DNA from: Cycloclasticus sp. 46_120_T64
GTDB lineage: Bacteria; Pseudomonadota; Gammaproteobacteria; Methylococcales; Cycloclasticaceae
DNA: 64,000 nucleotides
Reading direction: 5' to 3'
Assembly (NCBI GenBank): GCA_002162695.1
Contig: MAAM01000011.1
Coordinates: forward strand, 62,001 to 126,000
A program made the translations under genes and the position numbers. Positions 4,356-63,295 of this stretch are shown here, piece after piece. The first letter of the stretch is position 1. Each line of letters opens with the position of its first letter. The notes below the pieces were generated by a model, which saw nothing but the letters and a program-made list of their open reading frames with translations, was not told the origin of the DNA and ran no database searches.

Positions 4356-4925
4356 ATGAATGACATTGTAGTTAGTACGGCGGAGAACGGAGGAGTTGTT
4401 AGTACCGCCCCGCCATCGCAATACCTAACCTTTCTTGTGAGTAAGGAACGTTTAGGTATTAATATTAATGATGTGAATGAGATCATTGAAATTAGTAATA
4501 TGACCCGAGTTCCGATGACCCCAGATTATATACGTGGGGTGATTAACTTACGGGGGAGCGTGGTGCCTGTTATCGACCTGTCTGCACGGCTTGGGCATGA
4601 CTCAAGTGATATTGGTAAGCGTAGCTGTATCGTATTGGTGGAGGTTTTCTCCGATGATGGCATGCAAAACCTGGGTATGCTGGTCGATCAAGTGGATGAG
4701 ATTTTAGACATACCGGCGGAGCATATTCAAGCAGCGCCGAGTTTTGGTTCACATATTAGAACGGAGTTTATTCAGGCAATGGGGCGGGTAGGAGATGACT
4801 TCATTATCTTATTAGATATAAGTCGTGTCTTATCGGTGACCGAGCTCGCGCAGCTTCAGCAAGTGTCCACTGCATCGCAAAGCGCTCTTATGCTGGATGA
4901 GAAATCAGACGAGCAAGCTGGTTAA
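4356..4925 (+). CDS. cheW: Chemotaxis coupling protein CheW
   Basis: This 189-residue cytoplasmic adaptor joins the receptor tip to CheA. The CheW fold covers about 20-170, with the typical segments NDVNEIIE, VINLRGSVVPVIDL, VDQVDEIL and a closing IILLDISRVL strand. Both ends carry short extra tails without a recognised domain. It starts 14 bases after the MCP stop, preceded by a GTGGGAG ribosome site, so it is in the same transcript. Confidence 0.96.
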   Translation: MNDIVVSTAENGGVVSTAPPSQYLTFLVSKERLGININDVNEIIEISNMTRVPMTPDYIRGVINLRGSVVPVIDLSARLGHDSSDIGKRSCIVLVEVFSDDGMQNLGMLVDQVDEILDIPAEHIQAAPSFGSHIRTEFIQAMGRVGDDFIILLDISRVLSVTELAQLQQVSTASQSALMLDEKSDEQAG

Positions 4926-4963
4926 TGAGTAAATTAAAATCGAACCGATAAGGATCTAACTTT

Positions 4964-5764
4964 ATGCCGACGATGACGGAGGTAGAGTTCAATGATTTTA
5001 AGGCCTTTATTTATCAGCACGCGGGAATCGACCTGGCACCTAGCAAACACGTGATGGTGGCTAGTCGTCTCAATAAACGGCTGAGTTATTACCAGTTAGC
5101 AAGCTACAGCGAATATTTTAATTTGGTGATGGACCCTGATAATAAAGACGAGTTTCAGCTAATGGTCGATTTGTTAACAACCAATGAAACCTATTTTTTC
5201 CGTGAACCAAAACACTTTGAATTTTTGAAACAGGAAATCCTTAAGCGGTGGCGGGGGAGGGAATTCCGTCTTTGGAGTGCGGCCAGTTCGTCGGGGGAAG
5301 AGGCTTATTCTATCGCGATGATATTAGCGGAGAGTTTGGCTGCAAAACAATGGCAGATTTTAGGCACAGATTTAAGCACCAAAGTGTTGTTAAAAGCCCA
5401 GCAAGCGGTATATATGACGGATCGGATTGAGTTGCTCGACCAGCACTTGATGCAGAAATATTGTTTGAAAGGGGTGCGAACACAAGAAAATACTTTTCGG
5501 ATTAATGAAAGAATACGTCAGCGCGTTCGTTTTAAGCAGTTAAATTTAATGAAGCCGCTGCCCCCTAAAATAGGTAAGTTTGACGTGATATTTCTGCGTA
5601 ATGTACTTATTTATTTTGATAATGAAACCAAAAAAAAGGTAGTGGAACGCATTATTTCGGCGCTAAACCCAGGCGGGTATTTCTTTATTAGTCATTCTGA
5701 GACCTTGAGTCGAATTACCGATAAGTTAGACATGGTTAAGCCCTCTATCTATATGAAGAGATGA
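4964..5764 (+). CDS. cheR: Chemoreceptor glutamate methyltransferase CheR
   Basis: This 266-residue SAM-dependent enzyme methylates receptor glutamates during adaptation. It has an N-terminal helical CheR_N domain (about 5-60), then the methyltransferase domain with NETYFFRE, the SAM-binding LWSAASSSGEEAYS near residue 102, and FLRNVLIYF near the C-terminus. The length matches the family norm. The last four bases overlap the start of cheD (ATGA), so the two adaptation enzymes are translationally coupled. Confidence 0.97.
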   Translation: MPTMTEVEFNDFKAFIYQHAGIDLAPSKHVMVASRLNKRLSYYQLASYSEYFNLVMDPDNKDEFQLMVDLLTTNETYFFREPKHFEFLKQEILKRWRGREFRLWSAASSSGEEAYSIAMILAESLAAKQWQILGTDLSTKVLLKAQQAVYMTDRIELLDQHLMQKYCLKGVRTQENTFRINERIRQRVRFKQLNLMKPLPPKIGKFDVIFLRNVLIYFDNETKKKVVERIISALNPGGYFFISHSETLSRITDKLDMVKPSIYMKR

Positions 5765-6378
5765 ATGTACAGCCGTTTAAACATACTCAACGAATAACAA
5801 TTGACCCGGGTGAGTTTTATGTGAGTAATCGGCAAGAGGTTATTTCAACCTTGTTAGGGTCTTGTGTCGCGGCTTGCTTATTTGATCCGGTACATAAAGT
5901 GATAGGGATGAATCACTTTTTATTGGCCTATAAACAGCATTCGTACGATCAACCGATTATTGAGTCGGAAGAAGGTCGTTATGGGATGCAGGCTATGGAG
6001 TTGCTTATTAACGCTATGATGGCAAAAGGTGCGAAGCGACGGAATATCCAAGCGAAGTGTTTTGGCGGCGGCGATGTGTTGAGAATTCAAGGTGAACCCG
6101 GTGGTCGACAAAGTGTCGGCGGGGTTAATATCGACTTTATTCGTGAATATTTACGTAATGAAAATATTCCTCTAGTGGCATCATCTTTGGGTGGTATCTA
6201 CGGGCGTAATGTGCACTTTACGGGGAGTGATAATTCCGTTTTTGTCAGTGTGATTGGTGGGCAACAAAAAGGTCAGGTAGAGCAGGAAGAAAGAACGTAT
6301 TGGAAAAAAAGTATTGATGAACACGAGGCTATTAGCAAAGCGAATGCCTTTGCGGTAAATCAAGATGAATTTTGGTAA
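5761..6378 (+). CDS. cheD: Chemoreceptor glutamine deamidase CheD
   Basis: This 205-residue CheD family enzyme converts specific receptor glutamines to glutamates. The catalytic cysteine is C35 in LLGSCVAACLFDP and the catalytic histidine is H52 in GMNHFLL. Further family blocks are KCFGGGDVL and the GGxxGR-like GGIYGRNVHF. Its start overlaps the cheR stop. The 40-residue C-terminal tail after the core is charged and unconserved-looking. Confidence 0.96.
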   Translation: MNVQPFKHTQRITIDPGEFYVSNRQEVISTLLGSCVAACLFDPVHKVIGMNHFLLAYKQHSYDQPIIESEEGRYGMQAMELLINAMMAKGAKRRNIQAKCFGGGDVLRIQGEPGGRQSVGGVNIDFIREYLRNENIPLVASSLGGIYGRNVHFTGSDNSVFVSVIGGQQKGQVEQEERTYWKKSIDEHEAISKANAFAVNQDEFW

Positions 6379-6396
6379 AGGGATGAGGGCTGAATT

Positions 6397-7479
6397 ATGA
6401 ATGATATTAGAGTATTTCTGGTGGATGATTCTGCGGTTGTTAGACAGGTTTTAGGTAGTGTGATCGATAGTATTCCTGGTTTAAAAGTGATTGGTTCTGC
6501 ACCGGATCCTATATTTGCGATGAAAAAGCTAGAGGAAGACTGGCCTGATGTGATTGTATTAGATATAGAAATGCCGCGTATGGATGGTATTACGTTCCTT
6601 AAAAAGCTGATGAAGGAACACCCGATACCGGTTGTTATCTGTTCTACGTTAACGCTTAAGGGCGCGGAAGTTACGATGGAAGCGATGAGTGCGGGAGCGG
6701 TTGATATTTTGACCAAGCCGACGGTCAATCTGAAAGGCTTTCTAAAAGAGTCCAAGACTTTAATGGCCAATGCTATTAAAGGTGCGGCTCAGGCCAAGAT
6801 GCAGAAGGTAAAATCATTGGCTGCTGATAGTGCTCAGCGGGCCGCTATCGCGCCGGCAAAGCCGCTAATAGCGATGGCGGAAACCACCGATAGGGTGATA
6901 GCAATAGGTACCTCCACTGGCGGAACGCAGGCTTTGGAGGCTGTATTGACGCAATTGCCGAAAACAGCGCCGGGTATTGTAGTGGTACAGCATATGCCCG
7001 AAGCCTTTACTGCAGCCTTTGCTTCAAGGTTAGATGGTATTTGTGAGGTGACGGTGAAAGAAGCAAAAGATAATGATCGGGTGATGCCGGGCATTGTATT
7101 GATTGCGCCAGGGGGGATGCACTTATTATTACGGCGTAGTGGTGCGCAATATCGAGTCGAAGTGAAAGATGGACCCTTGGTAACACGACATAAACCCTCG
7201 GTGAATGTGCTGTTTCGTTCGGTTGCTAGCGCAGCGGGTAAAAATGCCATTGGCATTATTATGACCGGGATGGGTGATGATGGAGCCAAGGGTTTGAAAG
7301 AGTTGCATGAAACAGGGGCTCTAACGGTGGGCCAAGATGAGGCCTCCTGTGTCGTTTATGGGATGCCTAAAGAAGCGTTTAAGTTAGGCGGCGTAGATGG
7401 CGAGGTTTCCTTGTCGGTGATCCCCGAATTGATTGCTACAATGCCGAGTAGGAAGGTGTTTGCAAAAAACTATCAATGA
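6397..7479 (+). CDS. cheB: Chemotaxis response regulator and methylesterase CheB
   Basis: This 360-residue protein removes receptor methyl esters when phosphorylated by CheA. The receiver domain (about 1-120) has the acidic pair D10-D11 and the phospho-acceptor D56 in [14 protein letters not shown] linker at about 125-165 leads to the methylesterase domain with nucleophile S173 in GTSTGGT, the histidine in VVQHMPE near 200, and the aspartate in GMGDDGAKG near 293. It is the last chemotaxis gene. A weak CTATC/GATAG hairpin follows the stop. Confidence 0.97.
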
Positions 7480-7585
7480 TTGTTTAGTGCGGTGTTTGTT
7501 TGATGAGGATGCTATCAGCGTAGACGATAGGAAAAATAGCATAGAAAACTGAGTTTATTAGCTTGAGACGAATTAAAATTAGCGT

Positions 7586-21397: not shown

Positions 21398-21670
21398 ATG
21401 AATAAAACAGAACTTATAAACGCAATTGCTGAAGAGTCAGGTCTTACTAAAGCGGATGCTACTCGCGCATTTGATGCAACACTGTCATCAGTAACGAAGG
21501 CACTTACAGAAGGCGATAGCATTTCATTGATCGGCTTTGGTACTTTCTCTGTAAAAGAACGTTCAGCACGTACTGGCCGTAACCCACAAACGGGTGAAGC
21601 TATTCAAATTAAGGCGTCAAAGATTCCTTCATTTAAAGCTGGTAAAACATTAAAAGACGCTGTAAACTAG
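21398..21670 (+). CDS. hupB: DNA-binding protein HU-beta
   Basis: This 90-residue nucleoid protein bends DNA as a dimer. The full HU fold is present: [18 protein letters not shown], the [21 protein letters not shown] arm with its intercalating proline, and the C-terminal [12 protein letters not shown] helix. The lon–hupB–ppiD order is typical. GGGGGA before the ATG serves as ribosome site. Confidence 0.98.
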
Positions 21671-50466: not shown

Positions 50467-51450
50467 ATGTCGGAAATAAGTTTGAGCGAACCCCAACAAG
50501 CCCTACAGCGGCTGAAATCTATTATTAACCAGCAAATTATTGGCCAAGATGCTTTAGTGGAACGGATGTTGGTTGCCTTATTGGCGGATGGACATATTCT
50601 GGTTGAAGGTGCGCCAGGGCTGGCGAAAACTCGGGCGATTAATGTATTGAGCCAAGGTATCGAAGCGGACTTTCATCGGGTGCAATTTACCCCGGATTTA
50701 TTACCGTCCGATTTAACCGGCACCGATATTTACCGCCCGCAACAAGCAACGTTTGAATTTCAGCAAGGGCCTTTATTTCATAACTTAGTCTTAGCGGATG
50801 AAATTAACCGTGCGCCGGCCAAGGTTCAGGCGGCGTTATTGGAGGCGATGGCAGAACGGCAGATTACCGTCGGCTCGGCGACCTATCCCTTGCCGAAGTT
50901 ATTTATGGTAATGGCGACACAAAACCCGCTTGAGCAAGAAGGCACCTATGCCTTGCCCGAAGCGCAGTTGGATCGTTTTTTATTACATATAAAAATTGAT
51001 TACCCCAATGCCGAACACGAAAAACAAATTTTACACTTAGCCCGTGCCGAGGCGAGGGGCGAGGGTGTCGAGCAACAGAGTCTGCAGCCGATTAGTCAAC
51101 AATGTATATTCGACGCGCGCCAAGAGGTATTGGCGGTGTATATGAGCGACGAGTTGGAAGACTATTTATTGCAGCTTATTTTGGCGACACGGACACCGGA
51201 AGCCTATGGCGACGACTTAGCGGGCTGGTTGCAATATGGCGCGAGTCCACGGGCGAGCATTGCGCTTGACCGTTGTGCCCGCGCGAAGGCGTGGTTGCAA
51301 GGGCGTGATTTTGTTAGCCCGGAAGATATCCAAGGTATGGCTTATGATGTATTGCGCCATCGTTTGATTTTATCGTATGAGGCAGAAGCCGAAGGCATTA
51401 CCAGTGATCGTTTTATTAAAGAACTGATTGCTCGAGTTGCCGTGCCATAA
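50467..51450 (+). CDS. MoxR-type AAA+ ATPase, first gene of a Bat operon
   Basis: This 327-residue MoxR ATPase has Walker A in GAPGLAKTRA near 50, Walker B LADEINRA, the sensor region MATQNPLEQEGTYALPEAQLDRF and a C-terminal lid. Such proteins are chaperone-like partners of von Willebrand A proteins. The five genes downstream supply DUF58, DUF4381, two VWA proteins and BatD with no gaps, so it probably acts on that complex. Confidence 0.94.
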   Translation: MSEISLSEPQQALQRLKSIINQQIIGQDALVERMLVALLADGHILVEGAPGLAKTRAINVLSQGIEADFHRVQFTPDLLPSDLTGTDIYRPQQATFEFQQGPLFHNLVLADEINRAPAKVQAALLEAMAERQITVGSATYPLPKLFMVMATQNPLEQEGTYALPEAQLDRFLLHIKIDYPNAEHEKQILHLARAEARGEGVEQQSLQPISQQCIFDARQEVLAVYMSDELEDYLLQLILATRTPEAYGDDLAGWLQYGASPRASIALDRCARAKAWLQGRDFVSPEDIQGMAYDVLRHRLILSYEAEAEGITSDRFIKELIARVAVP

Positions 51451-52344
51451 ATGGAGCTGATTGAAGAGCAAAACCCGCGCGTTACGATCAGCCTAAAAAT
51501 GTTACTTGATCTGGCAAAAAAAGCCCCGTTGGTGGACTTGTCGCATAAACGAATTAGAGCCGGGCAAAGTGGTGAGTACCTGTCGCGCTTTAAAGGTCGT
51601 GGTATGGAGTTTGATGAAACCCGTATTTATCAACCGGGTGATGATATTCGCAGCATCGACTGGCGGGTCACCGCGCGTACCAATATCACCCATAGCAAGG
51701 TGTTTCGGGAGGAAAAAGAGCGTCCGGTGTTTATTTCGGTGGATGCTCGGCCTGCGATGCGGTTTGCTACTCGCGGTGTTTTTAAATCGGTACAAGCGGC
51801 TAAACTCGCCGCCTTACTCGCTTGGGCGGCACAATTAAATGGTGATCGGGTGGGCGGTCAAGTTTTTAATGAATACGGCTGTCAGGAGTTAAAACCGGCG
51901 TCGGGTAAACGCGCGGTATTACACTTTTTTAATGCCTTGGTGAAACCAAAACCGAGTACGCAAATTGACGATATCCCCTTTGATCGAGTGTTATTACGCC
52001 TCCTTCAACACGCAAGGCCGGGCAGCCTGCTGTATATCATTAGTGATTTCCGTGGATTGAATGAACAGCATGAAGCCTATTTAGCCAAGTTAGCACGGCA
52101 TTGTGAAATAGTGATGATCCACCTGTATGACCCCCTAGAAAGTCAGTTGCCGGAGCGGGGGCGTTATCGTTTTAGTGATGGCACCCAGGAACTGACGGTG
52201 GATAGTGGCGATAAATCACGAGTACAGGCTTACCATCAGCAGTTTCAGCAACGGCAGGCCTATTTATTAGAACTCTCTAAAAAATGGCGAATGAACCTCC
52301 TGCAATGTACGACCACTGAACAAGCAATCGAGGTGCTGAGCTAA
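51451..52344 (+). CDS. DUF58 protein of the MoxR/Bat operon
   Basis: This 297-residue protein has the DUF58 core GRGMEFDETRIYQPGDDIRSIDWRVTART followed by a VWA-like C-terminal region. It starts one base after the MoxR stop, with no separate promoter. DUF58 proteins are regular MoxR partners but their biochemical role is unknown. Confidence 0.92.
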   Translation: MELIEEQNPRVTISLKMLLDLAKKAPLVDLSHKRIRAGQSGEYLSRFKGRGMEFDETRIYQPGDDIRSIDWRVTARTNITHSKVFREEKERPVFISVDARPAMRFATRGVFKSVQAAKLAALLAWAAQLNGDRVGGQVFNEYGCQELKPASGKRAVLHFFNALVKPKPSTQIDDIPFDRVLLRLLQHARPGSLLYIISDFRGLNEQHEAYLAKLARHCEIVMIHLYDPLESQLPERGRYRFSDGTQELTVDSGDKSRVQAYHQQFQQRQAYLLELSKKWRMNLLQCTTTEQAIEVLS

Positions 52345-52808
52345 TGCCACAACAACTTGATTTACGTGACATTCACCTGCCCGATACCATCAGTTGGTGG
52401 CCACCTGCGATCGGTTGGTGGCTGGTTTTGGTGTTGCTTGTATTGGTGATAGGGGGCGCTTACACGCTGTTTAAAAAATGGCGGCAAGACAGCGCGGCGA
52501 AGGGGGCCAATAAACTGTTGGCGGATATTAAACAACAAGCTCATGACGATAAATTACAGACCATTCGTGCGTTATCGGTTTGTTTGCGGCGATTGCAGAT
52601 CAGTGATGAGCAGCGAGCGGAAGTGGCCAGTTTACATGGGCAGGCGTGGTTGCAATATTTAGATGGGTTTGTTGAAGGCAAACCGTTTAGCGAAGGCATT
52701 GGCCGTTGTTTGGCGGATGCGCCTTATCAGCCAGCACTAACGGTGGATGTCGATATTGAGGCGCTAATCAACTTATGTGAGCGCTGCGTGAAAGGACAAA
52801 CAAGATGA
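52344..52808 (+). CDS. DUF4381 membrane protein of the Bat operon
   Basis: This 154-residue protein has the signature LRDIHLPDTISWWPPAIGWW, then one membrane helix (about 27-45) and a cytoplasmic domain. It shares its first base with the DUF58 stop and overlaps the next gene by four bases. The function is unknown. It is a constant member of these operons. Confidence 0.9.
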   Translation: MPQQLDLRDIHLPDTISWWPPAIGWWLVLVLLVLVIGGAYTLFKKWRQDSAAKGANKLLADIKQQAHDDKLQTIRALSVCLRRLQISDEQRAEVASLHGQAWLQYLDGFVEGKPFSEGIGRCLADAPYQPALTVDVDIEALINLCERCVKGQTR

Positions 52809-53797
52809 TTCAGTTAGCCTTACCGTGGGTCTTATGGGTATTGCCCTTGCCCTTGCTTTTTCGCTACCTGTTACCGGCACAGGCGGTACTGGAACAAGCG
52901 GCGCTGAAGGTTGCGTTTTTAGACGACTTTTCTCAATTTGACAGCCAGCAAGTCAGCCAGCAAAAAAAATGGCCGCTTATTCTAGCGGGTATTGCTTGGG
53001 TTTTATTGGTGCTTGCGAGCGCACGCCCACAGTGGTTGGGCGAGCCGATTGAGCAAGTCATCAGCGGGCGAGATTTGATGATGGCGGTTGATGTATCCGG
53101 TAGCATGAAACAGACAGATTTCGTACTGGATGGTAACAAGGTGGATCGTTTAACCGCGACCAAACATGTCGCGAGTCAATTTATTCAACAACGCAGCGGT
53201 GACCGTATTGGGTTAATTTTATTTGGTACCACGGCGTATTTACAAACCCCGTTGACCTTTGATCGTAAAACGGTGGTCAACTTACTTAATGAAGCCTTTA
53301 TTGGTATTACCGATGATGAGCCCGCGACCTCAATTGGTGACGCGATCGGCTTGGCGGTAAAACACCTGAAAAACACTCAGGCCAATAGCCGAGTACTTAT
53401 TTTGTTAACCGATGGTACCAATACCGCGGGTGAGGTGAAGCCCTTGCAAGCTGCGCAATTAGCGGCTGATCATGGTTTGAAGGTTTATACCATTGGTATC
53501 GGTGCGGATGAAATGTTAGTGCGCAGTTTATTTGGTCATCGTCGTTATAACCCCTCGGGAGATTTAGATGAAAAAACCCTGCGCGCGATTGCTAAAAAAA
53601 CCGAGGGGCGTTATTTCCGTGCGCGTAATAAGGAAGAGCTGGAGACTATTTATCAATTATTAGATGAGCTAGAACCGGTGGAAAAAGATAAACAGTTTTA
53701 TCGACCGATGAGTGATTTATACCACTGGCCATTGGCCTTGGCATTATTGCTAACATCGTTTGTTTCAATATCACGTATGAGTTTCAAATGGACCTGA
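52805..53797 (+). CDS. BatA-type von Willebrand A protein
   Basis: This 330-residue membrane protein has N-terminal helices, a VWA domain (about 90-290) and a C-terminal helix. The metal-binding MIDAS motif is intact: D96-V-S-G-S in MAVDVSGSM, with the threonine in TTAYLQTPLT and the aspartate in LLTDGTNTAG. It overlaps its neighbours on both sides. Confidence 0.93.
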   Translation: MIQLALPWVLWVLPLPLLFRYLLPAQAVLEQAALKVAFLDDFSQFDSQQVSQQKKWPLILAGIAWVLLVLASARPQWLGEPIEQVISGRDLMMAVDVSGSMKQTDFVLDGNKVDRLTATKHVASQFIQQRSGDRIGLILFGTTAYLQTPLTFDRKTVVNLLNEAFIGITDDEPATSIGDAIGLAVKHLKNTQANSRVLILLTDGTNTAGEVKPLQAAQLAADHGLKVYTIGIGADEMLVRSLFGHRRYNPSGDLDEKTLRAIAKKTEGRYFRARNKEELETIYQLLDELEPVEKDKQFYRPMSDLYHWPLALALLLTSFVSISRMSFKWT

Positions 53798-55506
53798 GCA
53801 ATTTTCATTTTATTCGACCTTATTATTTATTAAGTTTAATACCGGCGATTATCTTGGCGCTGTTATTGCTGAAAAATAAGTTGGCGCAAGGGGACTGGAG
53901 CAAGGTCTGTGATGCGGAATTAATGCCGTATGTCTTGCAGCAAAAACCGGTCAAACAAAACCCTTGGCTGTTCCTTAGTGGTTGCTTGGCGGCGTTGTTG
54001 GCGATTATCGCGTTGGCGGGGCCCACTTGGCAGCGCTTAGATTCCCCGGTGTTTAGAAATGATGCCGCCTTGGTGATTGCGCTTAACCTGTCGGTGACGA
54101 TGGATGCAACCGACGTTAAGCCGAGTCGTTTGGTTCGAGCGCGTTATAAAATTGCCGATATTCTTCGCCAGCGGAAGGATGGCTTAACCGCCTTATTGGT
54201 TTATTCGGGGGATGCGTTTACGGTAACCCCATTAACCAGTGATGTCGCGACCATCGATAATATGCTGAGTGCCTTGGAAACTAATATTATGCCCAGTGCG
54301 GGTAATAATACCGCCGCGGCCATACAACTAGCGGTTAAATTATTACAGCAAGCCTCTCAGCAACAAGGTGATATTTTTCTTATTAGCGACGGTATTGGTG
54401 AGCAAGACGCCGATAGTTTGCTTGATTTGTTGGCGGATTATCACTTATCTATTTTAGGCGTGGGCACTGAACAAGGGGCGCCGATTACCCTGTCGCACGG
54501 TGGTTTTTTACAAGATGCGGCCGGTAATATTGTTTTGCCGACCTTATCGAATGCGCGCTTGGCGTCGTTGGCCAGCGCTGGGGAAGGGGTTTACCGGCAA
54601 ATAAGTAGTGATGATAGCGATGTTAACGCCTTACTCGGGCGCTTAGATAGCTTGGGTCGACGGGCTGCGGATAAGCAGAGCAGCGGGCTTATTGAACAAT
54701 GGCGCGATAACGGTGCTTGGTTATTGTTATTAGTATTACCGCTGGTAGCGCTGAATTTCCGTAAAGGTTTATTGAGCATCGCCTTATTATTGATATTGCC
54801 GCTGCCACAAGATGCCTATGCCGTGCAGTGGCAAGAGCTTTGGCAAACTAAAAATCAGCAGGCACAACAGGCATTTGATAATAAACAGTTTAAACAAGCG
54901 GCTGAATTATTCCAATCCCCACAATGGAAGGCGGCGGCGCAGTATAAGGCGGGGCAGCACCAGCAAGCCGCGGAGACGTTAAAGGAAATAGACGAGGCGG
55001 ATGCTTATTATAATAAGGCGAATGCGCTGGCCAAATCAGGACAATTAGACGCTGCGTTAAAAGCTTATCAGCAGGCGCTTAAATTACAGCCCGGTGATGA
55101 AGATACCTTGCATAATTTAAAGCAGCTTGAAGAGGCATTAAAACAGCAGCAAAATGATCAGAAGGAATCGGCGGAAGGAAAAAAACCGCAAGATAATCGG
55201 CAGAGTAGTCAATCTGATAAGTCGGGAGAGTCGCAAGATACGGATCAACAGAACGAACAGCAGCAAGCTTCGCAGGATAAAAAGGCTGAGCAGAAAGAGT
55301 CAACAGAGGCCAATGAACAAGAGGCGGCTTCTAGTGAAGAAGATGGACAACAAGACGAGCCAGAGGAGGCGGCCACGCCAACGAGCAGTTCGGATGAACA
55401 ACAGCAAGCCAATGAGCAATGGTTAAATAAGATTAAAGATGACCCGGCGGGCTTATTAAAACGTAAGTTTAGGTATCAATATGGTCAGCGCCAACGCCAG
55501 CAATAA
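53788..55506 (+). CDS. BatB/BatC-type fusion: VWA domain, TPR repeats and Q/E-rich tail
   Basis: This 572-residue membrane protein has two N-terminal helices, a VWA domain (about 90-285), a further helix near 310 and TPR-like repeats (about 355-450, including YYNKANALAKSGQLDAALKAY). It ends with a long Q/E/S-rich disordered segment before NKIKDDPAGLLKRKFRYQ. The MIDAS start reads N100-L-S-V-T instead of D-x-S-x-S, so metal binding may be lost. It overlaps both neighbouring genes. Confidence 0.93.
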   Translation: MDLSNFHFIRPYYLLSLIPAIILALLLLKNKLAQGDWSKVCDAELMPYVLQQKPVKQNPWLFLSGCLAALLAIIALAGPTWQRLDSPVFRNDAALVIALNLSVTMDATDVKPSRLVRARYKIADILRQRKDGLTALLVYSGDAFTVTPLTSDVATIDNMLSALETNIMPSAGNNTAAAIQLAVKLLQQASQQQGDIFLISDGIGEQDADSLLDLLADYHLSILGVGTEQGAPITLSHGGFLQDAAGNIVLPTLSNARLASLASAGEGVYRQISSDDSDVNALLGRLDSLGRRAADKQSSGLIEQWRDNGAWLLLLVLPLVALNFRKGLLSIALLLILPLPQDAYAVQWQELWQTKNQQAQQAFDNKQFKQAAELFQSPQWKAAAQYKAGQHQQAAETLKEIDEADAYYNKANALAKSGQLDAALKAYQQALKLQPGDEDTLHNLKQLEEALKQQQNDQKESAEGKKPQDNRQSSQSDKSGESQDTDQQNEQQQASQDKKAEQKESTEANEQEAASSEEDGQQDEPEEAATPTSSSDEQQQANEQWLNKIKDDPAGLLKRKFRYQYGQRQRQQ

Positions 55507-55516
55507 CAGGAATAGA

Positions 55517-57223
55517 ATGAAAATTAAACAAACAGTCATGAGTGTTATCTGGGCTCGCTTACCTGCTTTACTGCTGTTGTTAGTCCTTCCGGCAGGCACG
55601 GCGCTAGCGGTTGATATGGTTGCTGCGGTTGATCGTAACCCGGTGAGTATCAATGAATCGTTTAAATTGATTATTCGAGCCAGTGAATCTCCCGATGATG
55701 ATCCTGATTTTTCCCCCTTAACAAGCGACTTTGAGATTCTAAACCAGCAGCAAAGTAGTCGCTCATCGTGGGTCAATGGTCGCTCCAGTAAAGTGATTAG
55801 CTGGGACTTAGACTTGATGGCCAAACGGGTGGGGCATCTGCAAATACCGAGTATTCATTTTGGTGATGATCAAACTAAGCCTATCCCGTTGCAGGTGGTT
55901 GAAGATCAAGCGCAGGCGGCCGTTGGCGCAAATGAGCCGCTATACCTTGATGTCAGCGTATCGGCAGATGAGGTGTATGTGCAGGCGCAGCTGATTTATA
56001 CAGTGCGTTTATTTCAACGTATATCATTGGCGAAAGCGTCTTTAACCGAGCCGCAAGTTGATAATGCGGTTATTGAAAAGCTGGCTGAAGATGCGCAGTT
56101 TAATACCCAGGTGAATGGGGTTAATTACACCGTTGTGGAGCGTAAATACGCTATTTTCCCGCAGCAAAGTGGGCCATTAACGATTGCGCCTTTAACCTTA
56201 ACCGCGCAAGTGGCCAGCTCTAACCGTTCAGCCTATGGCAGTATCTTTAATAGCCAACGCACACAGACCCAGCGTGTTTTTTCAACAGCCGTGCAGTTAA
56301 ATGTATTGCCGATACCGGCTCAGTTTAAGGCAAAACATTGGCTGGTGGCGGAGCAACTACATTTAGAACAAACGTGGTCGAATGATGCGTTAACGGTTAC
56401 CGTGGGTGAGCCATTAACTCGTACCATTACCTTATTAGCGAAAGGGCTGACCGCGAGTCAGTTGCCGGAGTTTACTCAGCACGGTGGCCATTCATCGTTA
56501 AAGGTGTACCCCGATCAAGCGGTGTTAAAAAATCAGCGTAATGGTGATGGTGTGATTGCTTTTCGTGAGCAAAAAATAGCCTTCATTCCGGCTAAACCCG
56601 GGGAGTATCAACTTGAAGCGCTAGAGATTCCGTGGTTTAACAGCCAAACAGGGCAGCAAGCCGTTGCGCGTATTCCTGCAATGACCATTACCGCGGTGGC
56701 TAAGGAAGGCACTATTATTCAGCCGCAGGCTGGCGAGCCAGCAACAACAGGGGCTTTTGTTGAATTGCCGCAAGTGATCGAAAATCCTGTGACGGTGGAA
56801 GTAGATGATCGCTGGAAGTGGCTGGCCGTCGTATGTGCCGTGGGCTGGTTGTTAACATTAATGTATCTCGTTGTTAAGCGCTTTAAGACAGCGGCTGAGG
56901 CAACAATAGCTAAGAACGATGACCTGCCTTTGAAAACGCTTATTAAGCAGTTACAAAAGGCCTGTAAGGCCAGCAATGCTAAACAAGCTAAGTTGCTACT
57001 CAGTCAATGGCAGCAGCTTTTGCTCAGCGAAACAAACTTAGCCGGCAATAACGTCAGCCAGCAATTAAGTGATGAAATACAGCGTTTGAATCAAAGCCTA
57101 TACGCTAAACAAGCGATACCTTGGCAGGGTGAGCGTTTAGCTGTTCTAGTGTTAGCACATATGCGTCAATTGGACGAGCAGCAGAAAAAGCCTGAGGCCT
57201 TAGAACCGCTACACCGTTTGTGA
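55517..57223 (+). CDS. BatD (oxygen-tolerance BatD family)
   Basis: This 568-residue envelope protein has a signal peptide (WARLPALLLLLVLPAGTALA), periplasmic Ig-like BatD domains and one C-terminal membrane helix (near 437-455) with a cytoplasmic tail. I choose the ATG at 55517, five bases after AGGAA and just before a proper signal sequence. The in-frame ATG at 55481 lies within the previous gene. It ends the operon, and a hairpin at 57244-57275 follows. Confidence 0.92.
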   Translation: MKIKQTVMSVIWARLPALLLLLVLPAGTALAVDMVAAVDRNPVSINESFKLIIRASESPDDDPDFSPLTSDFEILNQQQSSRSSWVNGRSSKVISWDLDLMAKRVGHLQIPSIHFGDDQTKPIPLQVVEDQAQAAVGANEPLYLDVSVSADEVYVQAQLIYTVRLFQRISLAKASLTEPQVDNAVIEKLAEDAQFNTQVNGVNYTVVERKYAIFPQQSGPLTIAPLTLTAQVASSNRSAYGSIFNSQRTQTQRVFSTAVQLNVLPIPAQFKAKHWLVAEQLHLEQTWSNDALTVTVGEPLTRTITLLAKGLTASQLPEFTQHGGHSSLKVYPDQAVLKNQRNGDGVIAFREQKIAFIPAKPGEYQLEALEIPWFNSQTGQQAVARIPAMTITAVAKEGTIIQPQAGEPATTGAFVELPQVIENPVTVEVDDRWKWLAVVCAVGWLLTLMYLVVKRFKTAAEATIAKNDDLPLKTLIKQLQKACKASNAKQAKLLLSQWQQLLLSETNLAGNNVSQQLSDEIQRLNQSLYAKQAIPWQGERLAVLVLAHMRQLDEQQKKPEALEPLHRL

Positions 57224-57618
57224 GGGCTAGTTGCTGACCTGTGTTAACGGTTTTTTCAGTGATTCTCACCGTTAAATGGACACTCTTTCAATGAGTGAAT
57301 ACTGCTTTTAGTTGCTTGGAAGTAAGGCCTTATGTCAATGTGTTTTTAGCGCCGCTATTGAATGCTTTAATTGGAGAAGAGATGCCGGTTATTGGTATTG
57401 ACCAGCGGGGTGTTTTGCTGCCTGGTGAAACTTACAAAAAGTCCTTGTATTATGCCAAATATAGTCCCAGCCCTTATTGAATAAGAGTTCTTATGCACAT
57501 TAGAAAAAATCATCTGAATAAAAGCGCCAGTGGCGCCATCGTTGCTAGCTCTGGATGGCTGTTGACTTATCTAAGTCATTGATATTTATTGTTATAAATA
57601 AATTGCGTTAAATTGTTA
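57224..57618. other. Non-coding stretch after batD
   Basis: It contains the batD hairpin and a weak 61-codon frame at 57295-57480 (GTG start, no clear ribosome site) that I do not accept as a gene. I see nothing else recognisable before the DnaA-box segment. Confidence 0.5.
57244..57275 (+). terminator. Hairpin at the end of the Bat operon
   Basis: The arms TTAACGGT and ACCGTTAA flank a 16-base T-rich loop. A weak terminator or processing hairpin is possible. Confidence 0.4.
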
Positions 57619-57705
57619 CAATTTGATGTCAGGCCTTTTTAATCAAGCGATTAGAGCTTGTTTTAAGAGTTAATCCACAAAGTTATCCACAGAAAATGTG
57701 GATAA
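57619..57705. promoter_or_regulatory. DnaA-box cluster, copy A
   Basis: Three 9-mers lie in this segment: TAATCCACA (57671-57679, one mismatch), TTATCCACA (57683-57691, perfect) and TGTGGATAA (57697-57705, perfect, opposite strand). The last two form a perfect inverted pair five bases apart. An AT-rich tract follows (57750-57800). The 87-base block is 85% identical, without gaps, to copy B at 60352-60438. Confidence 0.7.
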
Positions 57706-57936
57706 TAAAAAAACCAGTTGTAGCAAGCATTTAGCTACGACCATTAACCGTACTTTTAAATATTTAAAATTTTGTTAAATATTTATTCGCTGATTTAAAC
57801 TCGCCGTTTAAATCGGTAAATTTCGTCATCATTTTAGAGTTTAGCTACTTGTTGATGTTGTCAATCAATAATCATCTAGCTGTAACCGTCCTGTTACATA
57901 AGCTATTTACTATCGCGGATAAATATTTTCAGCTTA

Positions 57937-58803
57937 ATGGATGCGATGTTTATGAGTAAATTGATGGTACTGCTAGTGATTATTTTCGGATTTTTTATTT
58001 CCGTCTCAATGGCAGGGCAACACAAAATAATCCGATCTACAGGGGATTCGATTGAATTATCTCGATATGAATTAGTGTCTCGCATCGATGTGGAGGAGGT
58101 CGATGATGACCTGTCGGGGCTGACTTTTAACCCCTTGACGGGAAGTTTATTTGCAGTGACCAATGAACCACCACAATTGATTGAAATGTCACTTGAAGGA
58201 CGAGTCATACGACTGATACCCCTGCTTGGTTTTGAAGATACCGAGGGTATTACCCATGTACAAGGAAACCAGTTTGCGTTAGTAGAAGAGCGAAAACGTC
58301 AGGTGGTGTTCTTTTCGGTGGATGAAAGCACGACGAGGATTGAACACGAACGCTGCGAAGTCTACGCCTTAGCGATGAAGGGGGAAAAGAATAAAGGCTT
58401 AGAAGGTATTGCATGGCGTGATGGAAAGGGGCTTCTGCTTGCCAAGGAAGATGAACCGGAACAGCTGTATCAACTTACAGTGAATAGCCAGTTTGAACTG
58501 GGCATGAACGTTTTATTGCGACGCTCGGAGACACCACGGTCATTAGGCGACGTGGCCGGCTTACACAGTTTAGCTAATGGCAATACCCTGTTGTTAAGCG
58601 AGGCCTCAGCTGTGTTGTTGGAACTATCACCGGAAGGCGAGATAGTTTCTGAAAAATCCTTTGCGGGTCTGCGTTACGATTCGTTTGTTATGTTTAAGAC
58701 TATTCGCCAACCTGAAGGGGTCACTGTCGCAGATGATGGACGGTTGTATATTGTATCCGAGCCGAACCAGCTGTTTATTTTTAATAAACCTGAGGTATCG
58801 TAA
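57937..58803 (+). CDS. SdiA-regulated-domain exported protein
   Basis: This 288-residue protein of the SdiA-regulated family (PF06977) has a hydrophobic N-terminal signal and a beta-propeller-like body. Motifs include LSGLTFNPLTGSLFAVTNEP, EDTEGITHV, GLEGIAWRDGKGLL and QPEGVTVADDGRLYIVSEPN. ATG codons at 57937, 57946 and 57952 are all in frame and none has a strong ribosome site. The function is unknown, and no luxR/sdiA-type regulator is nearby. Confidence 0.85.
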   Translation: MDAMFMSKLMVLLVIIFGFFISVSMAGQHKIIRSTGDSIELSRYELVSRIDVEEVDDDLSGLTFNPLTGSLFAVTNEPPQLIEMSLEGRVIRLIPLLGFEDTEGITHVQGNQFALVEERKRQVVFFSVDESTTRIEHERCEVYALAMKGEKNKGLEGIAWRDGKGLLLAKEDEPEQLYQLTVNSQFELGMNVLLRRSETPRSLGDVAGLHSLANGNTLLLSEASAVLLELSPEGEIVSEKSFAGLRYDSFVMFKTIRQPEGVTVADDGRLYIVSEPNQLFIFNKPEVS

Positions 58804-59453
58804 TACGAGGCATTTGGAATGAGCGGCTTAGTGCTGAGTTTTATATGAGTTGGATGTTATCGAGTTCAATGTATGGGGCAGCCCGTTTATGATCGAGAAA
58901 AAAGATCAGCTGCCTGATATTGTGAATATTAAGTTTTCGTTGATGAGAGGTTTTAGGTTGGGTGTAATTGATGCAATAATCCTCCCATTGAGCTGAAACT
59001 ATCAGCTCCCGAGTGCTACTAGAACTACTGTTGAGAGAGGCGTTATCATTAAACCTAATGAGTAACCGGGTTTGTGCGTTGCCAGCTCTTGCTTTAAAAC
59101 ATAAATGTGAATAATCGTGCCAGTCGTATTGAAAAATATTTAAGTGCGCACTAGGCCTGCTTTTATCGATTTTATTTAAACGTAGGTAGTGGATTGTCGG
59201 TGCTATTAACAGGGTGTTCTTGTCGTTCTACGCTGTTTAAGTGTTTGCCAGTTATAGGTCTTAAATCAGGCACAGTACACGCCCTAATAGGTTTTTGAAC
59301 GGGCTACAGAATAACATACGGGGTGATAACTTGATGTAGCAGCCAATGCTGAATTGTTTAGTGCATGCAGCCTGTTAAAACCTTGTTTTGTACGCTAGTA
59401 TCATGGTCGAAATGGCCACTGGAAACCGCATGAAGCGCTCAGCTATAAATAAT
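58804..59453. other. 650-base intergenic region without recognised gene
   Basis: Stop codons occur in all frames on both strands and no frame shows a convincing domain. I see no clear repeat or RNA. It could be decayed coding sequence or a long regulatory leader. I cannot tell which from sequence alone. Confidence 0.4.
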
Positions 59454-60104
59454 ATGACATACCCCATTTTTTATTCCTTACAGCACTGCCCTTATGCGAT
59501 GCGCGCTAGATTTGGCCTGATGTTGGCACAACAAGCGGTGATGTTAAGGGCGGTGGTGATGAAAAATAAACCGCCAGAGATGCTTGAGCTATCAGCAAAA
59601 GGTACGGTGCCTGTTTTGCTGCTTGAGGACGGTCGGGTGATTGATGAAAGCTTAGATATTATGTTGTGGGCATTGGCTCATAATGACCCTGAGGACTTGC
59701 TGTTGCAGCAGGATCAGGAAAAGTCTGTAGCGATGTTTGCTTTAATTGCGCATAACGATAATGAATATATTGATTGGCTGGAAAAATATAAGTACGCCAA
59801 GCGTAAACACCAAGCCGACGAGCTGATGTGCCGCCAGCAGTGTGAGCTATTTATCGCTGAGTTAGAGCAGCGTTTGTCTAAGCACGCTTATTTTTTGGGT
59901 GATAAACCTTGTTTAGCCGACTATGCAATACTGCCTTTTATTCGTCAGTTTGCGCGGGTCGACCGGCAATGGTATTTGCAAGCGCCTTACCCTGAATTAA
60001 GGCGGTGGTTGAACCATCAACTGCAACAGCCGATGTTCACTAAAGTGATGGCGAAATTTCCTTTATGGCTGGAGTGTGAAGAAGCATTTTTGTTTGCCGG
60101 TTGA
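59454..60104 (+). CDS. Glutathione S-transferase family protein
   Basis: This 216-residue protein has an N-terminal thioredoxin-like domain (FYSLQHCPYAMRARFGL, with C12, then KGTVPVLLLEDGRVIDES) and a C-terminal helical domain ending LPFIRQFARVDRQWY. I choose the ATG at 59454, five residues before the first strand. Earlier in-frame starts at 59388 (TTG), 59403 and 59430 would add unrelated residues. It is likely a detoxification or reductase enzyme of unknown substrate. Confidence 0.88.
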   Translation: MTYPIFYSLQHCPYAMRARFGLMLAQQAVMLRAVVMKNKPPEMLELSAKGTVPVLLLEDGRVIDESLDIMLWALAHNDPEDLLLQQDQEKSVAMFALIAHNDNEYIDWLEKYKYAKRKHQADELMCRQQCELFIAELEQRLSKHAYFLGDKPCLADYAILPFIRQFARVDRQWYLQAPYPELRRWLNHQLQQPMFTKVMAKFPLWLECEEAFLFAG

Positions 60105-60628
60105 TGCGTTCGTTGGCGATTACTTGCGGGCATTTTAGTGGATGAGCATGAGGTAAAATAATGCTAAAAAAGGCTTGCTATATTGAAACGATATACGCTG
60201 CGGTCGGGTGTTGAGAAGAGGGTTTATGCACACCATAGAAAATAGCTAAATACAAGCGTAGTAAAATCCCTTGCGTGTGCTTGGTTCTGCTGTTGACATT
60301 TGTTAAGTTGTTGATAATTAAGGTTTCGCTTGTAGTTGGCTTAAATTATGTCAATTTGATGACAGGCCTTTTCAATCAACACATTAGCGACTGTTTGCAG
60401 AGGTAATCCACAAAGTTATCCACAGGAATTGTGGATAATGAAAAACCTTAATGACAGCAAGCAGTTAGTCATAACAATTAATTTTTATTCTGGCTTTAAA
60501 AAAAATTATTAAATAAATCCCGGTTATTTTCTCGGCTTGTTTCTTAGGTGGCTAATCGTGCTGGCTTGAGGGGCTTCTTGGTGTTTTATTTTTATGATTT
60601 GAAGGGGCTAATTTGGTACGCTTAGCGG
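60105..60628. other. 524-base intergenic region with DnaA-box copy B
   Basis: No ORF is credible here. The region holds the second DnaA-box cluster, an AT-rich tract after it (60495-60520) and the promoter region of the nuclease gene at 60629. Confidence 0.6.
60352..60438. promoter_or_regulatory. DnaA-box cluster, copy B
   Basis: It has the same three 9-mers as copy A: TAATCCACA (60404-60412), TTATCCACA (60416-60424) and TGTGGATAA (60430-60438), with identical spacing. It is 190 bases upstream of an AddB-like DNA repair gene. Similarity to copy A extends upstream as far as a shared GCTGTTGAC (57558 and 60289). Confidence 0.7.
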
Positions 60629-63295
60629 ATGAAATTTTCTGACCTATTTAATGCTATAAAGCAGGGTGCGCTTGTTGTCACCGTTAATCAACGCCTTGCT
60701 CGGAAATTAAGCGCTGAGCTGGATCAAGCTTACTTAGCTGAGGCGTCGCAGACTTGGCCAGCGCCACTTGTTTTATCGTTTGATGGCTGGTTATTGAGTC
60801 TTTGGCAACGACGTTTTGATACAGATGAGCCATTAACCGCCAAGCGACAGGGAAAAACCTTATTAAACCCTGAGCAAGCCTTACAAATTTGGCAGCGGAT
60901 CATTAGTGACTCCAGCGCGGGGACCTTATTAAACGTAGCCGCGACCGCGAAGGCCGCGAATAAGGCGCGTCAATTGGCAATACAGTGGGGAATTGATGCT
61001 GAGCGAGAAACCGAGCTTAGTCTGGATGTTGAGAGTTTCCAGCAATGGCAGGCTGCTTATCAGGCCGTATTAGAAAAAAATAACTGGATCGACCGTCCGC
61101 AGCTATTAACGGTGGCGTTGCAGTTTATAGAACAAGGTCAAATCGATTGTCCGCCGCAGATAGTGTTGGCTGGTTTTGATGTGTTTACTGCTCAGCAGAA
61201 GGTTTTATGGGAGTTGTTGGCTAATACGGGTAGCGAAGTAGTACATTACCAGCCATATACTTTAACGGCTAAGGTGCAAGTATTAGCCGCCGCGGATATG
61301 CAACAGGAGGCGCAGTTGATTGCTCAGTGGGCGAGGGAGCAGTTAGAGGCGGATCCAACGCGGCGTATTGGTATTATTTTGCCGGAATTACAAACGCGGC
61401 GTAATGAGTTGGAACACGCGTTTATGAAGAGTTTCTACCCGAGTTTGCAGTACCCCTTAGACCTTCCCCTGCACAAACCCTATAACGTTTCACTCGGTCT
61501 ACCCTTAGTGAGTTACCCCGCGGTACAACAAATGCTGCGCGTTCTTGGTTTTTTTAGTCAACGCCTAGAACTGCTTGATTTAAATAAGTTATTGCGTTCG
61601 CCCTTTATTGCTGGCGGTGAAGCTGAGTGGAGCCAACGCGGGAGTTTAGAGCGGCAATTTAGGCAGCGAGGTTTTCTCAATGTATCCGTTCGGCAATTAG
61701 CTAAAACACTGACCGTTGATGAGGGTGACGATAACCCTTGCCCACAGTTGGCGGCCGCGCTTGCTGAGGTGCTGGTGTTATTACAGGACAAACCGAGCCG
61801 AGCCACCGCCAGTGAGTGGTTACCGTTTATCCGTGATTTGCTCGGGGCGATTAAGGTACAGGGTGACCGGCAGTTGAGTTCATTGGAGTTTCAGGTTTTT
61901 CAGGCTTGGGATAATTTATTACGCAGTTTTATCTTGCTCGATGAAGTCAGTGGCAGAATGAGTTTTGCGGCGGCTATTTCATTGCTTAGGCGCTTGGCAC
62001 ATGACCGTGTTTTTCAGCCAGAAACGCCCACCACACCGATTCAAATTATGGGTTTAATGGAAGCCGCTGGGCATACCTTCGATGCTTTATGGGTGGCGGG
62101 TTTACACGATAAGTGTTGGCCGCCAGTCGCGCAGCCCGAGGCTTTTTTGCCGATTAAGCAACAGCGTCAGCAGGGCTTATTACAAGCATCGGCGCAACGC
62201 CAGCATCAATTGGCGAGTAGCCAGACTGAACAATGGACACGTTCGGCGGAACAATTGGTTTTTAGTTACCCCAGTGCAGAAGCCGGCACTGCCTTGGCGA
62301 TGAGCCCCTTGCTGCAAGATTATCCGCTGGTTGATAGCTCTGAGTTATTACAGCGGCATTATGCGGATGTTTTGGCGCAGCGCATTGACTGTTCTGAGCT
62401 GGAGTATTTAGATGACCAGCAAGCACCGGCGCTTAAGCCTAATTCGCTCAGTCGAGGCGGGGTGGGTATTTTGCAAGATCAAGCGGCTTGCCCGTTTAGG
62501 GCCTTTGTACATCGGCGTCTAGTGGCCACTGATATGGAACAACCGGAACCTGGGATTGATGCGCGGTTACGCGGCAGCTTAGTGCACAGCGCCTTAGAGG
62601 CTGTTTGGTTGCTGCTTAAAGATCAGGCGGCATTATTGGCGATCTCGTTGACTGATTTGCAGGCATTAGTGCAGCAAGCTGTAAACGAAGTGGTTAACCA
62701 ACAAAGCCGCTTTACGCCGATACTACAAACCAGTTTTGCTGGTTTAGAGCAGCAGCGGATCAGGGTTTTAGTCCTGGATTTTTTAGAACTAGACCGTCTC
62801 AGAGAGCCGTTTACGGTGTCCGCGACTGAGCTCAGGAAAACGCTCAGCGTTGGCCCCTTACAGATCAATACCATTATCGACCGGGTGGATGTTTTAGCGG
62901 ATGGCTCGAATGCTATTATCGATTATAAAACGGGAGCCGCTTCACTACAGAGCTGGTTTGGTGAACGCCCTGAAGAACCTCAATTACCCTTATATGGGGT
63001 GTTTTCCGGGATGGATGTGCAGAGTATTAGTTTTGCCCAGCTGAAAAAGGGCGAGTGTAAATATATTGGTATCAGCAACTCAACGGCTAATTTTAGTATT
63101 TTGAAAGACTTACTGAAAGTTAAAGGGGCTGAGGATGATTGGGTGAGCCAGATTTCAAGTTGGCAGCGTATTAATAGCCGTTTGGCGAATGATTTTGTCG
63201 CGGGTGATGCACGAGTCGAACCCACTAGGAAAGCCTGTGAATACTGCGATTTGAGCAGTGTGTGCCGGATTAATGAACACGAAGTAGAGCACTAA
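60629..63295 (+). CDS. AddB-like PD-(D/E)XK nuclease of a helicase-nuclease pair
   Basis: This 888-residue protein looks like the nuclease subunit of an AddAB-type repair complex. The N-terminal part has a degenerate helicase-like fold (VTVNQRLARKLSAELD). The C-terminal PD-(D/E)XK domain has the core VDVLADGSNAIIDYKTG near 750-770. Cysteines in ACPFRAF near 621 and in CEYCDLSSVC near 870-879 could bind a 4Fe-4S cluster, as in AddB. It ends two bases before the helicase gene. Confidence 0.9.
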   Translation: MKFSDLFNAIKQGALVVTVNQRLARKLSAELDQAYLAEASQTWPAPLVLSFDGWLLSLWQRRFDTDEPLTAKRQGKTLLNPEQALQIWQRIISDSSAGTLLNVAATAKAANKARQLAIQWGIDAERETELSLDVESFQQWQAAYQAVLEKNNWIDRPQLLTVALQFIEQGQIDCPPQIVLAGFDVFTAQQKVLWELLANTGSEVVHYQPYTLTAKVQVLAAADMQQEAQLIAQWAREQLEADPTRRIGIILPELQTRRNELEHAFMKSFYPSLQYPLDLPLHKPYNVSLGLPLVSYPAVQQMLRVLGFFSQRLELLDLNKLLRSPFIAGGEAEWSQRGSLERQFRQRGFLNVSVRQLAKTLTVDEGDDNPCPQLAAALAEVLVLLQDKPSRATASEWLPFIRDLLGAIKVQGDRQLSSLEFQVFQAWDNLLRSFILLDEVSGRMSFAAAISLLRRLAHDRVFQPETPTTPIQIMGLMEAAGHTFDALWVAGLHDKCWPPVAQPEAFLPIKQQRQQGLLQASAQRQHQLASSQTEQWTRSAEQLVFSYPSAEAGTALAMSPLLQDYPLVDSSELLQRHYADVLAQRIDCSELEYLDDQQAPALKPNSLSRGGVGILQDQAACPFRAFVHRRLVATDMEQPEPGIDARLRGSLVHSALEAVWLLLKDQAALLAISLTDLQALVQQAVNEVVNQQSRFTPILQTSFAGLEQQRIRVLVLDFLELDRLREPFTVSATELRKTLSVGPLQINTIIDRVDVLADGSNAIIDYKTGAASLQSWFGERPEEPQLPLYGVFSGMDVQSISFAQLKKGECKYIGISNSTANFSILKDLLKVKGAEDDWVSQISSWQRINSRLANDFVAGDARVEPTRKACEYCDLSSVCRINEHEVEH

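Follow-up and report, generated by a model that had tools for sequence, protein, structure and literature searches.

A Tandem Pair of Putative DnaA-Reactivating Elements in a Cycloclasticus-Related Genome and the Recurrence of Their Layout in Other Gammaproteobacteria

The Duplicated Element

The DNA considered here, referred to as the window, is a stretch of 64,000 nucleotides from Cycloclasticus sp. 46_120_T64. Towards its end, among genes for BatD, an SdiA-regulated protein, a GST, and an AddB-like protein, lie two copies of an element centred on three DnaA boxes. An initial annotation of the window had reported a gapless duplicated block of 87 bases with 74 identities, carrying three DnaA-box-like 9-mers of the same order and spacing, the last two inverted, and followed by an AT-rich tract. 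A recount of the blocks 57619-57705 and 60352-60438 gives exactly this ungapped figure. The boxes TAATCCACA, TTATCCACA, and inverted TTATCCACA lie at 57671, 57683, and 57697, with counterparts at 60404, 60416, and 60430, and the A+T content of the 100 bp after each block is 72% and 73%. That description covered half of each element, as a predicted site for integration host factor (IHF) and a fourth DnaA box reach 180 bp beyond the core. In a repeat search, the ungapped match widens to 110 nt at 83% identity (57603-57712 and 60336-60445), and an additional block of 28 nt at 75% lies about 90 bp further on in the same register, with an offset of 2733 (57483-57510 and 60216-60243). Both elements lie outside the listed open reading frames (ORFs) of at least 80 aa, and an RNA-family search of the window at gathering thresholds returned five tRNA matches only.

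When positions 57480-57720 were compared with the whole genome (G000), the second copy was recovered with E = 2.6e-26 and a third copy was found on another contig, at G000:C7:320005-320121, with E = 8.3e-17. The box pattern, allowing up to three mismatches, occurs at 3 places in the 2.21 Mb genome and its reversed form at 0, and because of these counts and E-values the duplication is not a product of chance. The initial annotation would have given way to a dispersed repeat had many scattered copies turned up; the scan yields only these three in this genome, all with the distal DnaA box. Taken by itself, the box TTATCCACA is present at 33 places in the genome, versus 13 for the reversed form.

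Both window copies have, in minus-strand orientation, the sequence TTATCCACA-N5-TGTGGATAA-N3-TGTGGATTA, a core of 35 bp resembling that of a DnaA-reactivating sequence (DARS). The boxes are numbered by the Escherichia coli rule (PMC5742627), in which box I has the reverse orientation of boxes II and III (Table 1). The core on contig C7 has 2 mismatches to this pattern and the spacer TTTTC, as in element 1.

Table 1: Positions of the two elements and their predicted parts in the window.
Feature	Positions	Strand	Remarks
Element 1, whole (core, IHF site, distal DnaA box)	57491-57705	-	
Element 1, DARS-type core TTATCCACA-TTTTC-TGTGGATAA-CTT-TGTGGATTA	57671-57705	-	box I 57697-57705, box II 57683-57691, box III 57671-57679
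Element 1, predicted IHF site TATCAATGACTTA	57572-57584	-	86 bp beyond core; perfect match to WATCAANNNNTTR
Element 1, second IHF consensus AATCAAGCGATTA	57641-57653	+	perfect; 17 bp from core
Element 1, distal DnaA box TTATGCACA	57491-57499	+	171 bp from core
Element 2, whole (core, IHF site, distal DnaA box)	60224-60438	-	
Element 2, DARS-type core TTATCCACA-ATTCC-TGTGGATAA-CTT-TGTGGATTA	60404-60438	-	box I 60430-60438, box II 60416-60424, box III 60404-60412
Element 2, predicted IHF site TATCAACAACTTA	60304-60316	-	87 bp beyond core; perfect match
Element 2, second IHF consensus AATCAACACATTA	60374-60386	+	perfect; 17 bp from core
Element 2, distal DnaA box TTATGCACA	60224-60232	+	171 bp from core

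Comparison with DARS and datA of E. coli

The regions used for comparison were DARS1, DARS2, and datA of E. coli MG1655. The DARS core is defined by three boxes with the same spacing at both sites, box I being opposite to boxes II and III (PMC5742627). In DARS1, located between bioD and uvrB, the core is TTATCCACT-ATTCC-TGTGGATAA-CCA-TGTGTATTA, with 2 mismatches to the pattern used here, and in DARS2, between rppH and mutH, it is TTATTCACC-TTTTC-TGTGGATAG-AGT-TGTGAAGAA. Both window copies possess the order, orientation, and 5/3 spacing of these cores. Even the first spacers agree, that of DARS1 with element 2 and that of DARS2 with element 1 and the C7 copy, an agreement over five bases that may be due to chance.

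Beyond the core the two E. coli sites diverge. DARS1 differs from the window elements, as the 258 bp after its core contain neither an IHF consensus (up to one mismatch) nor a full-consensus DnaA box. DARS2 resembles them, with an IHF consensus (1 mismatch) that follows the core on the side where theirs lies and a further full-consensus DnaA box at +176, which would be box V. DARS2 also has the Fis-binding sites FBS2-3 and a cluster of low-affinity boxes. The IHF site of the elements likewise takes the form of a consensus match, perfect in the window copies and with 1 mismatch in the C7 copy. Like the DARS of E. coli, the window pair is intergenic and away from oriC; the statement that the window lacks dnaA was borne out, the best dnaA match being on the other contig, at G000:C7:6938-7420. 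The position differs, since DARS2 lies by mutH, whereas here there are two copies 2.7 kb apart, among the genes named above, and a third between priA and a gene for an ECF (extracytoplasmic function) sigma factor; mutH adjoins none of them. Conversely, 6 kb of the E. coli priA region contain no core, even at up to 9 mismatches.

Homologues of DARS2 have been described in Vibrio cholerae and Shewanella denitrificans, which places the core outside Enterobacterales (PMC8682772, Figure 8 legend). Their description includes Fis sites as well as box V or low-affinity boxes, and it is by description that they can be set beside the window elements; the excerpted text of that paper mentions neither priA linkage nor a fixed distal box for them.

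The datA locus resembles the elements in combining noncoding DnaA boxes with an IHF site, according to published work, and differs in that its listed boxes include no three-box core of 5/3 spacing. The assignment of the window elements to datA, as a box cluster with an IHF site and without a DARS core, was not supported, given that they possess such a core. The initial reading of a DnaA regulatory site away from oriC is upheld in this respect; among the alternatives it offered, DARS is favoured because the box geometry is that of DARS1 and DARS2.

The identity of core order, orientation, and 5/3 spacing with both E. coli sites makes a strong case, as far as sequence can, for elements of DARS type. 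Each block is probably a DARS of DARS2-like layout, which would turn ADP-DnaA back into ATP-DnaA.

Distribution of the Core

The core was searched with up to three mismatches, and with the reversed pattern as control, in overlapping genome sets of the genus, order, class, and phylum. It was found in 16/18 genomes of the family (all of one genus), 248/301 of the order, 225/369 of the class, and 120/299 of a phylum draw; the reversed pattern gave 0 matches in the genomes tabled. The phylum draw includes near-copies of E. coli DARS1, such as TTATCCACTATTCCTGTGGATAACCATGTGCATTA in G847, which serve as a kind of positive control. In the same draw, the core was found in 0/11, 0/12, 0/13, and 0/14 genomes of families f204, f211, f217, and f221. 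Many genomes of family f205, of the same phylum and another class, carry the core, with up to eight matches per genome, as in G697. At 63 of 72 related loci, no ORF of at least 150 aa runs across the core.

The spacing was examined by an exact search of the 369 class genomes in which both spacers were free to vary from 0 to 20 (441 combinations). Among the 124 matches listed, from 99 genomes, 123 are 5/3 and the remaining one is 5/16; because of this near uniformity, the spacing is, as judged from the sequences, under selection.

Tight pairs of cores, about 350-450 bp apart, were observed at G185:C1:753487/753839, G249:C1:572395/572750, G128:C1:2979541/2979892, and L120:162/609. These are closer tandems than the window pair.

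The IHF Site and the Distal Box in Relatives

Within the genus, the distal box TGTGNATAA is present 167-171 bp beyond the core in 17 of 19 elements, namely, the three of the window genome and 14 linked to priA. Across these elements its N is A, C, G, or T, in keeping with the consensus for DnaA boxes. Of the 17, 16 have an IHF consensus at 85-87 bp with no more than one mismatch, and none was found in G005. The second IHF consensus of the window copies, at +17, was considered as the conserved site and rejected, because of the 17 elements none but the window pair has it in perfect form.

An exact scan of a named genome collection returned 58 stretches, each titled as a metagenome-assembled genome. 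Their titles are mostly Gammaproteobacteria or unspecified proteobacteria, with four Betaproteobacteria and two odd labels. Where at least 200 bp beyond the core were available, the distal box is present in 38/55 loci, in every case at 166-171 bp; the rest of the 300 bp beyond the core contains only three boxes of the same orientation, all in L107. Four of the 58 (L078, L094, L108, and L133) match genomes of the window genus at 100% identity, in alignments of 1772-3035 bases, and were removed for counts outside the genus. After this removal, the distal box remains in 34/51 loci, 26 of which have an IHF match at 78-92 bp. After thinning of similar loci, the IHF match is found in 20/28, compared with a mean of 0.63 and a maximum of 4/28 in 500 shuffles. 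The IHF site and the distal box, then, hold their position in many, though not all, loci outside the genus.

L106, titled as a Halobacteria archaeon, combines a PriA match with a core that is accompanied by the distal box, and in L107, titled as Oscillospiraceae, genes from the dnaA region of the window genome find matches beside several DnaA boxes. Both are perhaps contaminating contigs in those assemblies.

Genomic Position and Linkage to priA

The C7 copy adjoins priA, 313 kb from dnaA. A core beside priA recurs in 15 of the 16 genus genomes with a match, and for this reason the priA copy looks ancestral. The ECF sigma gene is on the other side in 14 of the 15; the stretch from G003 showed PriA only. 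In four genomes with both on one contig, the distance from dnaA to the priA-linked core is 13.7-14.1% of the genome (the size of G002 being rounded, and G000 and G002 being drafts).

In the named collection, a PriA match accompanies 22/58 loci, 21 of these 22 having the distal box; outside the genus, the proportion is 18/54. The other 36/58 have no PriA match in the stretch examined, some stretches ending close to the core. For 10 loci not linked to priA, one neighbour each was compared with protein models: citrate synthase (twice), HemW, RimO, the ribonucleotide reductase alpha subunit, and Lon scored above cut-off; a PhoQ-like kinase, a transhydrogenase subunit, and an SDR enzyme scored below it; one was without a match. 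In L125, a core at 4266-4300 with its distal box lies near the ribonucleotide reductase alpha gene (4767-7577). The E. coli nrdAB promoter contains DnaA boxes (PMC8682772).

The distance from the origin was followed in 10 order genomes picked for their few contigs, with rounded sizes and one G068 match on another contig dropped. All 29 core matches on the dnaA contig are about 162 kb or more from dnaA, which argues that the core is not part of oriC.

The Window Pair as a Lineage Addition

An AddB-like gene is present in 15/18 genus genomes, the window genome included. The core, allowing up to seven mismatches, was found in 0/14 of the other AddB-like loci, in stretches of up to 3.9 kb that reach only the place of element 2, and in 0/6 longer stretches of 16-20 kb from the same relatives. 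The gene batD, which lies 3.4 kb upstream of the AddB-like gene in the window, is found at about 0.7 kb in G006, 3.6 kb in G017, 8.1 kb in G001, and 10.7 kb in G007; it was not found in the 16 kb stretch around the AddB-like gene in G002 and G009. In two finished relatives, the AddB-like locus is 43.5% and 44.9% of the genome from dnaA. Judging from this distribution, the window pair looks like an addition of the lineage, giving extra doses beside the older priA copy.

Across about 237 bp, identity is 64% between the two window copies and 59% and 51% between these and the C7 copy, and element 1 reaches up to 63% identity with the copy of one relative. The addition may have arisen by local duplication.

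Proposed Mechanism

It has been reported for E. coli that ADP-DnaA molecules on boxes I and II meet head to head and that ADP is released (PMC8682772), that DARS2 is activated by IHF and Fis (PMC4245941), and that ATP-DnaA assembling from box V inactivates DARS2 (PMC8682772). The window genome encodes DnaA, together with Hda, IHF-alpha, and IHF-beta above their NCBIfam cut-offs; these proteins and the conserved three-part geometry are what the sequences provide. From them we infer that DnaA and IHF bind at the elements, with ADP release, a DNA loop, and a feedback role to follow.

ADP-DnaA would occupy all three boxes of the 35-bp core, boxes II and III facing the other way from box I, and the head-to-head pair on boxes I and II would, by analogy with E. 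coli, loosen ADP. The apo-DnaA could then leave, take up ATP, and become able to fire oriC. IHF, bending the DNA about 86 bp beyond the core, would bring the distal DnaA box near the core complex; at 10.5 bp per helical turn, the 166-171 bp to this box correspond to about 16 turns. The distal box might either aid the assembly of the ADP-DnaA complex or, once filled with ATP-DnaA, turn the site off.

A broader proposal, which is tentative, is that the ancestral gammaproteobacterial DARS, often linked to priA, consisted of three parts: the 35-bp core, a bend made by IHF near +85, and, at about 16 turns, a distal box that senses ATP-DnaA. DARS1 and DARS2 of E. coli would then be derived forms, and lineages would adjust initiation through added copies, of which the pair beside the AddB-like gene of this Cycloclasticus-related genome may be an example.

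Contrary Evidence and Alternative Explanations

Several findings count against a DARS of DARS2-like layout. In the class, 144/369 genomes are without the core at up to three mismatches. Two of the 19 genus elements (G007b and G014b) lack the distal box, as do 17/51 loci outside the genus, 9 of which still have the IHF match; conversely, 8 of the 34 outside loci with the distal box are without an IHF match. The parts are also not superimposable on those of E. coli DARS2: the IHF consensus is at +74 there and at +86/87 in the window copies, and the distal box (+171) runs opposite to the E. coli box at +176, an orientation that, as a matter of sequence, argues against simple equivalence of the two. 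Furthermore, the C7 copy sits between divergent genes, where promoters are expected, and L107, one of the 58 named loci, has matches to dnaA-region genes, so that the core arrangement can occur near an origin. As a separate observation, L058 and L062, from G014 and G007, carry a second type of core (TTATCCACGGAATC...) without a distal box, at a locus other than priA.

Of the alternatives, the one that survives best, while unlikely, is a DnaA sink or inactivation site that would either titrate DnaA away from oriC or, like datA, promote hydrolysis of DnaA-bound ATP with IHF. Clustered strong boxes and IHF consensus sites are ingredients of datA too, and the pair adds boxes to an otherwise box-poor region, 7 of the 11 TTWTNCACA boxes in the window lying between 57491 and 60438. 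Plain titration, however, requires no fixed spacing, yet nearly all of the listed matches are 5/3, and this arrangement belongs to the E. coli DARS cores and not to the listed datA boxes.

A role in which DnaA regulates the transcription of an adjacent gene, be it priA, the ECF sigma gene, or the AddB-like gene, has less in its favour still and is improbable. The divergent promoters expected at the C7 copy and the recurrent PriA matches, inside and outside the genus, would fit it. On the other hand, most of the named loci have no PriA match in their stretch, the neighbours at the 10 loci checked are varied, and the window copies preserve the geometry in a different neighbourhood. The suggestion that DnaA controls the genes next to the window pair fared no better, given that 14 relatives have the AddB-like gene without a core at the place of element 2, while elsewhere the core adjoins various genes.

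A second replication origin or a part of oriC is very improbable: DnaA boxes do stand beside A+T-rich DNA and L107 has its dnaA-region matches, but the window pair was rejected as an origin on the location of dnaA and its own box clusters on another contig, the G:C skew of the window's contig C4 (positive in all 32 intervals of 10 kb, near zero at 220-230 kb and at the end), and the distances of cores from dnaA. Just as improbable is a dispersed repeat or mobile element that happens to contain DnaA boxes, which the close spacing of the pair and its absence from the corresponding stretches of six relatives would suit, but not the count of three copies in the genome, their divergence to 51-64% identity with functional positions conserved, or the constant place at priA across the genus.

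Relation to Known DARS

The reactivation of DnaA by DARS was elucidated in E. coli. DARS or similar sequences are placed by two reviews in a number of Gammaproteobacteria or in many proteobacteria; for DARS2, the range named is E. coli-proximal beta- or gammaproteobacteria (PMC5742627). Sequences resembling DARS1 and DARS2 occur in several relatives of E. coli (PMC4585315), and the DARS2 core is conserved in related species (PMC4245941). No description of a priA-linked DARS or of a distal box at a fixed distance was found among the papers listed in searches of open-licence literature or in the excerpts from them. Hence, DARS as a kind are known, and the fixed geometry, the priA linkage, and the tandem pair seem new.

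The recurrence of this layout in many Gammaproteobacteria suggests, at the level of sequence, a replication-timing switch older and more widespread than its E. coli examples. As the geometry can be written as a search pattern and is kept over much of the class together with the fixed distal box, the mechanism becomes testable by comparison, which could reveal the spacings that are fixed, the position of copies with respect to oriC, and shifts in copy number from one lineage to another.

Neighbouring Genes and Minor Observations

Upstream of element 1, a run of same-strand ORFs (window 50467-57223) ends in batD (Pfam BatD). The AddB-like protein (window 60629-63295) has as its best match the NCBIfam model TIGR03623, "probable DNA repair protein," above cut-off, and the AddB models score below theirs. 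An HU/IHF-type protein is encoded at C4:83398-83667 (window 21398-21667), with its best score, below cut-off, to HU-beta. Finally, a block AAATTGTAACAAA, at window 57613-57624 in element 1 and about 45 bp beyond the core, is kept in most genus elements and more weakly outside the genus.

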